From NCBI GenBank assembly GCA_035710745.1, contig DASTCX010000018.1:10001-74000 (forward strand): a DNA stretch of 64,000 bases, read 5' to 3'. This DNA is from Candidatus Eremiobacteraceae bacterium (GTDB taxonomy: Bacteria; Vulcanimicrobiota; Vulcanimicrobiia; Eremiobacterales; Eremiobacteraceae). Positions 7,620-43,123 of the stretch are shown here, piece by piece. The position numbers and the translations under genes are program-made. The notes under the pieces were generated by a model, which worked only from the letters and a program-made list of their open reading frames with translations, ran no database searches and was not told the origin of the DNA. Position 1 is the first letter of the stretch. Every line of letters begins with the position of its first letter.

Positions 7620-7715
7620 GGGAGCGGTCGAGATTTATCTCGACCGCCGCGGCCCCGCAGAGATAGTGCTGGGGAGCGGTCGACCTTTACGGTCGACCGC
7701 CGAGCTTCGCTCGGC
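7620..7715 (-). repeat. R1-R1-R2 repeat cluster between convergent genes
   Basis: Two minus-oriented R1 copies lie at 7620-7654 (loop TTTA, stem GCGGTCGAGA) and 7672-7702 (stem GCGGTCGACC). The R2 hairpin GCCGAGCTTCGCTCGGC at 7699-7715 is fused to the second. The recN stop codon falls 4 nt after R2, within the conserved R2 tail (CCTGCTAC here, CCTACTAC elsewhere). The cluster fills the space between two converging genes and could act as a bidirectional terminator. Confidence 0.85.
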
Positions 7716-31829: not shown

Positions 31830-33713
31830 CTAGCGGTCGCCGTCGCCTGACATCGACATCGCTTCTTTGGTGACCGACTTGAGGAACGCTTCGTTCGAGT
31901 CGGTGCGCCGGAAGCGCTCGAGGATGAGTTCGGTCATCTCCTGCGTGCCGAGCACCGCGGTGGCGCGGCGCAGCATGACGACCTTGCGGAGCTCGATCTC
32001 GCTGAGCAGGAGCTCCTCGTGACGCGTGCCCGACTTCTTGATATCGACGGCCGGGAAGATCCGGCTGTCGGCGAGCTTGCGCACGAGATTGATCTCCATG
32101 TTGCCCGTGCCTTTGAACTCTTCGAAGATGACGTCGTCCATCTTCGAGCCCGTCTCGATGAGCGCGGTCGCGACGATCGTCAGGCTTCCGCCTTCCTCTA
32201 TATTGCGGGCCGCTCCGAAGAAGCGCTTCGGGCGATGGAGGGCGCTCGTGTCGAGGCCGCCGGAGAGGGTCCGCCCGGTCGCCGGCATCACCTGGTTCCA
32301 GGCACGCGCGAGACGGGTGATCGAGTCGAGCAGGATCACGACGTCGTGACCGAGCTCGACGAGCCGCTTGCAGCGTTCGAGGGTCAGCTCGGCGACGGCG
32401 GTGTGGTTGTCAGGATGTTCGTCGAAGGTCGAAGAGACGACCTCGCCTTCGATCGACCGGCGCATGTCGGTGACTTCTTCGGGCCGCTCGTCGACGAGCA
32501 GCGCGAACAGGTCGACCTCCGGGTGGTTGGCCGCGATCGCATTCGCGATCTTCTTGAGCAGCGTCGTCTTGCCGGCTTTCGGCGGCGACACGATGAGCGC
32601 GCGCTGTCCCTTGCCGATCGGGCAGAAAAGGTCGAAGACGCGCCCGCTCATCTCGAGCGGCGACGTCTCCATCTTCAGCCTGACGTCGGGATAGACGGGA
32701 ACGAGCTTGTCGAAAACCGCGCGACCGCGGAGCGATTCCGGGTCTTGACCGTTGACCGCCTCGACTTTGAGGATGCCGTGGTACTTCTCGTTGTCCTTCG
32801 GATCGCGGATCTGTCCGGCGATGAGGTCGCCCGTGCGAAGCTCGAATCGGCGGATCTGGGATTGCGAGATGTAGACATCGCCCGGACCAGGGCGCATGTT
32901 CTCACGCCGCAAGAAGCCGTAGCCTTCGGGTAAAATCTCGAGGACGCCGGTGGCGAAATGGAGTCCGGCCGCTTTTGCCTGCGCCTCGAGGATCGGGAAC
33001 ACGATGTCGCGCTTCTTGATTCGCTGGAGGTTCGGGATTTCGAGGCTCTTCGCGAGCTCGATGAGCTCGGTGCGGGTCTTGTCCTCGAGCTCCTTGACGG
33101 AGAGCAAGTTCATGACGGTGCCGTCTTTGCCGACGTACGTCTTCGGCGAATTGTCGTAACGCTCGACCGGCTGCTGCTGTTGCTGCCGCGGCACGAACAC
33201 TCTGCCCGGCTGCCGGTTGCCGCGATCGAAACGCCCGCGGTCTCGGTCGCCGCGATCTTGGCGGTCGTAGCGCCCCCGGTCTTGGCGATCCCGGTTATCG
33301 CGGCCGTCGCGGTCCGGACGTTCGACGCGGTCGTGCCGCTCGTAGCGTTCCGGCCTCTCGACGCGCTCGGGGCGCTCGCGCTCGATGCGATCGGGCCGCT
33401 CGCGCTCTACCCGCTCGACGCGATCTTGGCGGTCTCCGCGATCTTGGCGCTCCTGGCGGTCGTAGACGCGCTCCACGCGCTCTCGGGGTTCGCGGGGTTC
33501 GCCGCGATCTCGCTGATCGTAGGCACCTTCGGCCTCCGCGTCACGCGGCTCTCGATCGTCGAACGCCGACGTCGTTTCTGCGCGCCCATCGCTCTCCGGC
33601 GCCTCGTCGGTATCATCCGAGACGGGGCGGATGCGCGCGCGGCTGACCGGCCGTCCAGGTCGAGCGGGGCGCTCTGGCCGGGGCGAATTTTCGAAATCGT
33701 TGTCTTCTTGCAC
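31830..33713 (-). CDS. rho: Transcription termination factor Rho with long disordered N-terminal extension
   Basis: A hexameric RNA helicase that ends transcription. Residues ~1-190 are a low-complexity Arg/Asp/Glu-rich region (repeats such as [17 protein letters not shown]) followed by a Gln run. The standard Rho follows: Rho-N helix domain ([20 protein letters not shown]), the RNA-binding cold-shock fold ([20 protein letters not shown]), Walker [16 protein letters not shown] (~376-383), [13 protein letters not shown] and [14 protein letters not shown], the Q and R loops. It is 627 aa versus about 420 in E. coli. The start is GTG at 33713. Similar extensions are known in Actinobacteria and Bacteroidetes. 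Confidence 0.96.
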
Positions 33714-33935: not shown

Positions 33936-33965
33936 ACTATAGCATATGGCGCGAGCGTCCGTCAA
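33936..33965 (-). promoter_or_regulatory. Likely promoter of rho inside the end of mpg
   Basis: On the minus strand TTGACG (33965-33960) and TATAGT (33941-33936) are separated by 18 bp. The -10 overlaps the mpg stop codon. Transcription would start near 33929, giving a leader of about 215 nt before the rho GTG. The gap 33714-33935 holds no other gene; such long leaders are known for autoregulated rho. Confidence 0.6.
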
Positions 33966-34671
33966 CGTTGACGCGCGACACATCGCTCGCCGGCCGCCCT
34001 CGGCGATGGGCCGAAATCGCCTTGCTGTCGGCATCGAAAAAGCGCAACGGCCACTCGCGGGCGACGGTAAGCCCTATTCGGTGGCCCTCGAAGAGCCGCT
34101 TCGGCTCGGTGCCCTTCGCGATGCGCAACTCGCCGACCGCGAGATCGACGCCGTCGAGCGAGCGATCGATCGCGAGCGCGCGGCACAAGTTCCCTGGTCC
34201 GCTCGCCAATCTGACGTCGTCGACGCCCGGCCTTCGGGCGCGCATCGTTTCGATTCCACTGACGGGCTCGGCGGCACGGATCAGCACGGCTGCGCCGATC
34301 CCGGGGCGCTCGGTTGTGACGTTCAGACAGAAATGATTTCCATAGATGAAGTAGACGTACGATGTGCCGGGGCGCCCGAACGCGCTCGCGTTGCGTTTCG
34401 TCGGACCGCGATACGCGTGACACGATGGATCGACGAGCGGCAAGTAAGCTTCCGTCTCGACGATTCTTACTGCGATCTTGCCCGAGCGCTCATCGCCGTC
34501 GAGCGGCTCGCGGATCAGCAGCGCTCCGACGAGCCGGCGGGCGACGGAAATCGTCGGCCCGTAGAAATCGAATGGGACCTCGCGCGCTGGGTCTTGACGG
34601 CCGTCGTGTTTTGCGTGATGATTGCGCAACACAGGGACCGGCTTCGCTCCGCTAGGTGAAGTGGTTCGCAC
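33937..34671 (-). CDS. mpg: DNA-3-methyladenine glycosylase (AAG/MPG family)
   Basis: Removes alkylated purines in base-excision repair. Typical blocks are LVGALL, AVRIVETEAYLPLVDPSCHA followed by YRGPTKRNASAFGRPG with the catalytic Glu, YVYFIYGNHFCLNVTTE, and LASGPGNLCRALAI. The GTG at 34671 gives 244 aa, but its first ~30 residues are not conserved; a GTG further in (near 34632) is an alternative. It starts only about 60 nt from the divergent prepilin-like gene. Confidence 0.9.
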   Translation of the reverse strand: MRTTSPSGAKPVPVLRNHHAKHDGRQDPAREVPFDFYGPTISVARRLVGALLIREPLDGDERSGKIAVRIVETEAYLPLVDPSCHAYRGPTKRNASAFGRPGTSYVYFIYGNHFCLNVTTERPGIGAAVLIRAAEPVSGIETMRARRPGVDDVRLASGPGNLCRALAIDRSLDGVDLAVGELRIAKGTEPKRLFEGHRIGLTVAREWPLRFFDADSKAISAHRRGRPASDVSRVNVDGRSRHML

Positions 34672-41283: not shown

Positions 41284-41346
41284 GGCCGCGGCGGTCGAGA
41301 TAAATCTCGACCGCTCCCTTCATATCGAATAGACCGCGGCGGTCGA
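41284..41346 (+). repeat. R1 repeat plus a half R1 between convergent genes
   Basis: A full R1 at 41284-41318 (stem GCGGTCGAGA, loop TAAA) is followed at 41332-41346 by only the left arm GACCGCGGCGGTCGA, which ends abruptly. The half copy shows that R1 can be truncated at the middle of its palindrome. Confidence 0.88.
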
Positions 41347-41359
41347 TTCTGTTTTTGGG

Positions 41360-41812
41360 TTAGGCGACGCTTTGGTAGACGGTCGACGCGAGCGCCGATG
41401 CTTTTGCGCGCAGGGCGGCGAGGCGCTGCGCGGGCACGGCGATGATCCTCGCGCTCGCGAACTCGTTCAGCTTGCAGCCGAGGATGATGTACGGAAGCGT
41501 GAGATCGCGATGCGGGTCGGTGCGGCGCTGGATCTCTCCGACGACCGCTTCGTCGTCGGTCTGCAAGAGCACCCGGCGGACGTCGAGCGAACGCAGCCGT
41601 TCGAGCGCGCTGATGAGACCAGCGTAGGTGTACTCGTGCCCCTTTTGCGAGGGCATCTCGTGGACGGCGAACGGGATGAAGTGCTCGACCGCGGTGCCAG
41701 ACTCGTCGATGAGCGTCAGCGCGGCGAGGCCGCGGCCCGGGCCGCAACGCAGGGTCGCGACGAGCGCTTGGCAGTCGCGGCGGGTTTTTCGGGTCCTCTC
41801 CAGGGTCTCCAT
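41360..41812 (-). CDS. RNase H-like (RVT_3-type) protein under a putative SOS promoter
   Basis: A 150-aa protein. The region HEYTYAGLISALERLRSLDV followed by RRVLLQTDDEAVVGEI resembles the helix-strand part of RNase HI/RVT_3 domains that carries the second and third acidic residues. The first catalytic Asp of the fold is not obvious (LAALTLIDESG), and the C terminus is a helix rich in Ala. It may be a nuclease or an inactive nucleic-acid-binding relative; the assignment is tentative. The start ATG at 41812 lies only about 10 nt after a -10 box, so the mRNA is probably leaderless or nearly so. The gene stands alone between two convergent or terminating units. Confidence 0.6.
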   Translation of the reverse strand: METLERTRKTRRDCQALVATLRCGPGRGLAALTLIDESGTAVEHFIPFAVHEMPSQKGHEYTYAGLISALERLRSLDVRRVLLQTDDEAVVGEIQRRTDPHRDLTLPYIILGCKLNEFASARIIAVPAQRLAALRAKASALASTVYQSVA

Positions 41813-41821
41813 GATGGTAAA

Positions 41822-41850
41822 AGTATATCGAACATGTGTTCGAAAGTCAA
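41822..41850 (-). promoter_or_regulatory. Sigma70-type promoter with a LexA (SOS) box in its spacer
   Basis: On the minus strand TTGACT (41850-41845) and TATACT (41827-41822) are exactly 17 bp apart. The spacer contains the dyad CGAAC-ACAT-GTTCG (41842-41829), a perfect match to the Gram-positive-type LexA consensus CGAACN4GTTCG. A repressor bound there would block RNA polymerase. It serves the gene at 41360-41812. Confidence 0.8.
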
Positions 41851-41884
41851 ACGAACGTCCCGCTAAAAGTGGGCTCGTCCTGGC

Positions 41885-43123
41885 CTATGGCGACGTCGAT
41901 GATACAGCAGAAACGTGCCCAGGATCGACGACGTCAAACAGCTCGTCGAAGGCGGACATATCCGCCGTTCCGGCACGATTCGCCAGTACAGCCTCGTAGA
42001 CGGCGAGGACGCGGCCGGCGGTAGCCCGAGCATCGAAGGATGCTGCCGCGGCTCTTGAGTGTGCCGACGCGGCGCTTCGAGCAGCCGGATCGGTGAGCAG
42101 TCGTTTCAGCTCCGCTGCCATCCCCTCGGCGTCGGCGACGAGCGCCCCGGCGAGGTTGCTTCCAAAGACGTCTCGCGTCTGGGGGCTGTCGATCGCGACG
42201 ACGGGCAGCCCTGCTCCGAACGCCTCCGCGAGAACGAGCCCTTGCGTCTCGGTCACCGACGGGAACATGAAGGCGTCCGCGGCCGCGTAGTACGTCGGCA
42301 GCTCGTCGTGCGGAACACTTCCGACGAAGTGGATGGCCCCTTCGAGCCCCTCAGCCCTCGCCTGCTGCTTGAGCGAATCCTCAAGCGGGCCGCTGCCGAC
42401 GAGCAGCAATTGGGTGTCGGGAAGGTCGGCGCGGACCAAGGACAGCGCTGCGAAGGCCAGGGGGACGCTCTTCTCCTGCGCCAGGCGCGAAACGAGCAGC
42501 AAAAGCGGGGCATCCGGGGCGATTCCGAGCCGTCCCCGGACCCCTATTCCGACGGTCGCTTCGGTGTTGCGGAACGCCTCGAGATCGACGCCGGTCGGCA
42601 CGATGCAGATCGGCGCGGTGACGCCGTCGCGACGCAATCCGGATGCCACCGTCTGCGTCGGAACGATCACTGCATCCGCGGCATTCGCGTATGCGCGCGT
42701 CAGCTCGCGCGTCAACTGCGCCGTGATGCGCGGTCCGAGCGGCGAGTAATGCGAGTAACGATCGAGCATCGTGTGATACGTGAAGACGAGCGGCACGCGA
42801 AAACGTCTGCGCGCGTAGTACGATGCCATCCATCCGGTGATGAAGAGCGAGTGGCTGTGGATCACGTCGCACTGGCTCAAGAACTGTCGCTTGTTGCGGC
42901 GCGCGACGAGCGGAAGCGTCAAACGATATTCCGTGCGTGCCGGAAGCGGAAGCGACGGCATGCGGAAGACGCGGCCTTTGGTCTCCGCACCGCGCGGGAT
43001 GTGCGGAGCGAACGTGTACACGTCGTGGCCGCCTTCTCGCAACACGTGTGCGAGCGTGTCGACGGAGGTCACGATACCGTTGACGATGGGACGGTACACT
43101 TCCGTGAAAAGCGCGATCTTCAA
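41885..43123 (-). CDS. Glycosyltransferase, GT4 family
   Basis: GT-B fold transferase of 412 aa. The N-terminal acceptor domain starts MKIALFTEVYRPIVNGIVTS, with HSHSLFITGWMASYYARRRF and TYHTMLDRYSHYSP. The C-terminal donor domain has LLLLVSRLAQEKSVPLAFAA and the sugar-nucleotide motif FMFPSVTETQGLVLAEAFGA with the E-x7-E pattern. It resembles lipid-directed mannosyl/glucosyltransferases (for example diacylglycerol or PIM type), but the substrate is not certain. The gene is single and has its own 5' region (43124-43264). Confidence 0.88.
   Translation of the reverse strand: MKIALFTEVYRPIVNGIVTSVDTLAHVLREGGHDVYTFAPHIPRGAETKGRVFRMPSLPLPARTEYRLTLPLVARRNKRQFLSQCDVIHSHSLFITGWMASYYARRRFRVPLVFTYHTMLDRYSHYSPLGPRITAQLTRELTRAYANAADAVIVPTQTVASGLRRDGVTAPICIVPTGVDLEAFRNTEATVGIGVRGRLGIAPDAPLLLLVSRLAQEKSVPLAFAALSLVRADLPDTQLLLVGSGPLEDSLKQQARAEGLEGAIHFVGSVPHDELPTYYAAADAFMFPSVTETQGLVLAEAFGAGLPVVAIDSPQTRDVFGSNLAGALVADAEGMAAELKRLLTDPAARSAASAHSRAAAASFDARATAGRVLAVYEAVLANRAGTADMSAFDELFDVVDPGHVSAVSSTSP

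Follow-up and report, generated by a model that had tools for sequence, protein, structure and literature searches.

A candidate core SOS gene of the Eremiobacteria is predicted to encode a non-catalytic RNase HI paralogue

Our analysis of a stretch of 64,000 nucleotides (64 kb; hereafter the window) from a member of the Eremiobacteria identifies a gene that we consider, on balance, to be a core SOS gene of the whole class, its product a non-catalytic paralogue of RNase HI with a probable role in damage repair as a nucleic-acid-binding protein or an adaptor. The predicted fold and the regulation are well supported; the ligand, the partner and the molecular job of the protein we infer. Eremiobacteria are a class of little-studied soil bacteria, placed by GTDB records in Candidatus Eremiobacterota/Vulcanimicrobiota, and our searches of the open-access literature returned no paper on SOS in Eremiobacterota and no description of an inactive or RNase H-fold gene in an SOS regulon. 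It is unusual for an SOS gene of unknown function to persist throughout a class with so constant an operator. Features of the locus are collected in Table 1.

Table 1. Features of the candidate SOS locus and its conserved neighbours, in window coordinates
Feature	Position	Strand	Basis or remark
-35 hexamer TTGACT	41845..41850	-	Sequence; TTGAC retained in most orthologue promoters
LexA box CGAACACATGTTCG, palindrome, inside the 17-nt spacer	41829..41842	.	Sole perfect match in the window
-10 hexamer TATACT	41822..41827	-	Start codon 9 nt further on
RNase H1-fold protein of 150 aa, predicted non-catalytic; SOS-controlled gene (predicted)	41360..41812	-	ORF; ATG at 41812
GT4 glycosyltransferase, upstream neighbour, syntenic marker	41885..43123	-	Pfam; same-strand upstream in nearly all family loci
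3-methyladenine-DNA glycosylase (MPG/Aag)	33937..34671	-	PF02245 E 1e-57; NCBIfam PRK00802/TIGR00567; about 6.7 kb from the gene here, next to it in f2 and f3
rho, next gene of the conserved block	31830..33713	-	ORF; same order in relatives

On the minus strand the gene is preceded by a promoter, TTGACT-17-TATACT (41850-41822), that spans a perfect LexA box, CGAACacatGTTCG; both the hexamers with their spacer and the full CGAAC-N4-GTTCG dyad within it are as a preliminary description of this DNA had read them. A motif scan found no second perfect CGAACN4GTTCG in the window, and one-mismatch boxes elsewhere in it have a frequency compatible with chance (11 matches in total versus 8.5 expected). 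A lone perfect box is weak evidence of SOS control, because the host genome (G000; 2.97 Mb in 41 contigs, 98% complete) contains 12 of them as against 6 for a reversed control pattern. Among those 12, the ACATGT centre is confined to the window box and a box on contig 34. The distance from the -10 hexamer to the start codon, first put at about 10 nt, is 6 or 9 nt in 11 of the 11 promoters that were read from the window's family, and this short spacing implies a leaderless or near-leaderless mRNA for these genes, as had been suggested; in the families f2 and f3 many members have longer leaders.

More importantly, both the gene and its box are conserved. A sequence search recovered homologues in 48 of 61 near genomes, and a profile search recovered orthologues in 105 of 149 genomes of the phylum, all of them within the class Eremiobacteria (105/117); the same search found none in the 32 genomes from other classes of the phylum, though most of these have lexA. 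We read the locus closely in 50 genomes (30 plus 20 divergent ones) and observed a perfect box at the gene's promoter in 49 loci and a box with one mismatch in the remaining locus, and the 210 kb of orthologue loci hold no further perfect boxes. Named MAG loci, a set that partly overlaps the 50 genomes, carry the box in 15 of 15 cases, while 0 of 26 ordinary RNase HI loci do. Because it is retained at nearly every orthologue promoter, the box is, as judged by this comparison, beyond chance. Nine pairwise comparisons gave dN/dS values of about 0.05-0.4, which shows purifying selection on the ORF. An opposite-strand ORF at 41372-41866 was rejected, since orthology and purifying selection fall on the minus strand. 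Profile matches in G033, G075, G076 and G039 contain one in-frame stop codon, which suggests genes that decayed recently, matches extended too far or errors in the sequence.

The cognate repressor is also at hand. The host genome encodes lexA (contig C25; TIGR00498, 239.6 bits, E 3e-71) with two one-mismatch boxes upstream, CGAACATATGTTTG and CGAACAGATGTTTG, and lexA was found in nearly all genomes of the class. On contig 34 of the host, the perfect box that shares the window box's centre precedes imuA (RecA-like) and imuB (IMS), an SOS mutagenesis cassette (L007), and five relatives have the same box type before lexA and imuA. The preliminary description had proposed SOS control and named a search for lexA and further boxes, together with conservation of the box before orthologues, as ways to check it; all have come out in its favour. 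Given that lexA is present, and that the box is conserved class-wide and shared with known SOS genes, we regard control of the gene by LexA as close to certain, with LexA binding and damage induction as its predicted consequences.

The product belongs to a family of proteins of 137-150 aa and is predicted, with very high confidence, to adopt the RNase H1 fold. An AlphaFold2 model of the window protein, made with 15 relatives (pLDDT 86.8, pTM 0.83), has the element order beta-beta-beta-alpha-beta-alpha-alpha-beta-alpha, and the model of an f2 member scored similarly (pLDDT 90.9, pTM 0.87). In Foldseek searches the best PDB match of both models was 4e19, the RNase H1 of the archaeon Halobacterium salinarum (E 2e-7 to 3e-7, TM up to 0.79), followed by other RNases H1. 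Against Pfam RVT_3 the window protein scored 19.3, below the cut-off of 21.6 (E 0.001), and the orthologue from G005 scored 23.2, above it; when hhalign compared the protein family with the ordinary RNase HI encoded by the same genomes, E was 1.6e-5 over an alignment spanning the fold. A sequence-profile search of PDB chains yielded insignificant matches only (uS11, E about 0.4), and the uS11 match was set aside in favour of the fold search. Structure prediction, a further check proposed at the outset, agrees in two models with the RNase H-like fold then suggested, as do Foldseek and the profile comparison, and none of the three findings named as counting against that description (no LexA in the genome, an unconserved box, an unrelated fold) was made. 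The search for relatives outside the phylum covered Pfam, PDB, plasmids and phages. No family for the window protein was found in NCBIfam, PHROGs or PADLOC, and no relatives were found in plasmids and phages; a known mobile or defence gene was rejected on the lack of plasmid, phage or PADLOC matches.

Fold, element order and detectable profile similarity are shared with type 1 RNases H (RVT_3/PF13456; 4e19, the N-terminal domain of Rv2228c, 3hst, and Sulfolobus RNase HI), but the SOS protein has a shortened hairpin, its gene is under predicted LexA control and its active site appears to be lost. In an alignment of ordinary RNase HI the four catalytic acids are invariant, within the motifs DGG, AEY/AEW, DSEL and D-V-N. 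Among 58 SOS-type sequences, placed on the same positions by profile alignment rather than by side-chain geometry, the equivalents of D10 and E48 are acidic in none; acids fill the D70 equivalent in 47% of the sequences and the D134 region in 28-78%. Judged by these residues, the protein would not be an RNase HI enzyme. The preliminary description had called the first catalytic Asp unclear; D10 is indeed missing, but this understated the change, as E48 is absent too and the other two positions are unconserved. Instead, the SOS-type sequences share an invariant Y108, C113, L115 and acid at position 87, with N116, R135 and Y63 nearly invariant. A separate, intact RNase HI coexists with the SOS paralogue in all 26 genomes searched. 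We consider the protein very likely to be non-catalytic, and because its catalytic carboxylates are lost it most likely binds without cutting; the earlier suggestion of RNase H activity is not supported, given these residues and the intact enzyme alongside.

Nor is the gene an orphan, as first described, since its neighbours are conserved (GT4 - gene - MPG - rho). Two of the three families, f2 and f3, have the arrangement GT4 - box - gene - MPG - rho - rluB, and MPG begins at or within tens of nucleotides of the gene's stop codon, sometimes with a 4-nt overlap; loci without MPG have rho directly after the gene. In the window the block order is kept but split, with a gap of about 7 kb between the gene and MPG that holds opposite-strand genes (an AI-2E transporter and others). 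We found no evidence that the GT4 glycosyltransferase belongs to the SOS unit. The observed operon linkage to MPG suggests a connection to base-excision repair. Box and gene are retained where MPG is not adjacent (L102, L103 and L105, for example), and since the box stays with the gene and not with MPG, the gene itself is the predicted SOS target. Because the link is broken in the window's family and MPG is not adjacent in some members, the protein cannot be solely an MPG accessory.

LexA blocks the promoters of its target genes, and its RecA-stimulated self-cleavage upon DNA damage frees them. From this established biology and the conserved operator we infer that in undamaged cells LexA on the box, between the -35 and -10 hexamers, would block RNA polymerase, and that damage would free the promoter by LexA self-cleavage, yielding in the window's family the predicted (near-)leaderless mRNA. 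The RNase HI paralogue, its fold kept and its carboxylates lost, would then bind rather than cut: at sites of damage or stalling it would recognise RNA:DNA hybrids or a different nucleic-acid structure; alternatively, it may act as adaptor to a repair partner. Hybrids of this kind arise in E. coli after UV damage and stop replication there when RNase H is missing (PMC8053090). The glycosylase MPG/Aag would be co-produced with the protein in most species. Whether or not the protein reads nucleic acid we judge to be evenly balanced. A more specific version, in which the dead paralogue reads hybrids or lesions and connects damage at R-loops or stalled transcription with base-excision repair through MPG/Aag, and perhaps with Rho, is tentative and rather unlikely; if true, it would be a kind of SOS function that we did not find described.

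Several other explanations deserve weighing. A purely protein-protein adaptor or regulator, acting for example on the mutasome, RNase HI, Rho or MPG without binding nucleic acid, through the surface near Y108, C113, N116 and R135, is possible, if rather unlikely. Conservation peaks in the helix before beta-5 (YxxLxCxLNxF) and not at active-site positions, the gene is co-located with MPG and rho, and ImuB and ImuA offer a precedent for non-catalytic SOS proteins (PMC3765255); against this, Y108 and L115 may belong to the packing core, and the corresponding helix of ordinary RNase HI has a similar L/Y..L..F pattern. We think it improbable that the protein is a nuclease still active through a rearranged metal site, in which acids at 23, 60, 87 and 131 replace the tetrad and hybrids or R-loops are degraded after damage. 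Such an activity would suit the RNase H1 fold and the finding that UV damage in E. coli creates RNA:DNA hybrids which block replication when RNase H is missing (PMC8053090), and all 58 sequences have an acid at position 87, with 25 of them having acids at all four positions. The window protein, however, has C23 and L131; positions 23 (50%) and 60 (66%) are unconserved, unlike the catalytic acids of ordinary RNase HI; D23 is located next to the turn of the beta-hairpin, at a distance of several residues from the inferred D10 site; and an intact RNase HI is already present in all genomes searched.

The remaining two readings concern the locus rather than the protein, and both are very improbable. 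That the ORF is a mere leader or passenger which places MPG under SOS control would fit the f2 and f3 loci, where MPG follows directly or overlaps, but it is largely refuted by families without an adjacent MPG, in which box and gene persist, and by dN/dS values well below 1. Less probable still is a chance origin of the palindrome, or its use as an operator by a different repressor: the host genome has 12 perfect boxes versus 6 for the control pattern, so chance sites do exist, but the box recurs at 49 of the 50 promoters and nowhere else in those loci, and lexA and imuA are preceded by the same motif.

The reading that we favour, of an SOS-controlled, non-catalytic RNase HI paralogue, has a parallel in ImuA and ImuB, which are inactive paralogues of RecA and UmuC, respectively, encoded in SOS operons (PMC3765255). 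The present protein would likewise be an SOS-controlled inactive paralogue of a nucleic-acid enzyme, and a dead RNase H would extend the pattern of SOS systems recruiting such proteins; in contrast, the ImuA and ImuB folds are those of RecA and a Y-family polymerase, and their genes are not in one operon with the gene described here. The gene would also link the SOS response to the biology of RNA:DNA hybrids and to base-excision repair.

Our results give a first sketch of the Eremiobacteria SOS regulon. LexA operators of the GAACN4GTTC type are known from Bacillus subtilis (PMC4234289), and the regulon described here has the same operator type, a lexA with its own boxes, and imuA-imuB and DnaE2-like targets, to which it adds the RNase H-fold gene and, by operon, MPG. 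In at least one relative, boxes precede genes for a DnaE2-like polymerase III alpha subunit, an Lhr-type helicase and a DinG-type helicase. A LexA-type box also lies before a class II (B12-dependent) ribonucleotide reductase gene in two genera (L150 and L156, in G037 and G019). In f2 genomes (L144, L153 and L159) a gene oriented divergently from lexA, with the lexA boxes in common, encodes a small secreted LysM-like protein, possibly an SOS-controlled envelope or cell-division factor. In one relative, a perfect LexA-type box marks the start of a gene with a PAPS-reductase domain (DndC-like; L134, G005:C15, box at 2548), which, if bound by LexA, would bring a gene of the DNA-modification or defence type into the SOS regulon.

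A further observation concerns a palindromic repeat, CGGTCGAGATaaaTCTCGACCG, found near the gene at 41292-41313 and also at 7625, 11259, 24183, 29503, 46186 and 46236, giving 7 sites in the window versus 0.1 expected by chance. The genome holds about 300 per strand, as against 0 for the control, often as tandem units spaced ~50 nt apart, and the copy near the gene forms a stable predicted hairpin (z -3.1). The repeat looks like an extragenic family of the REP/BIME type.
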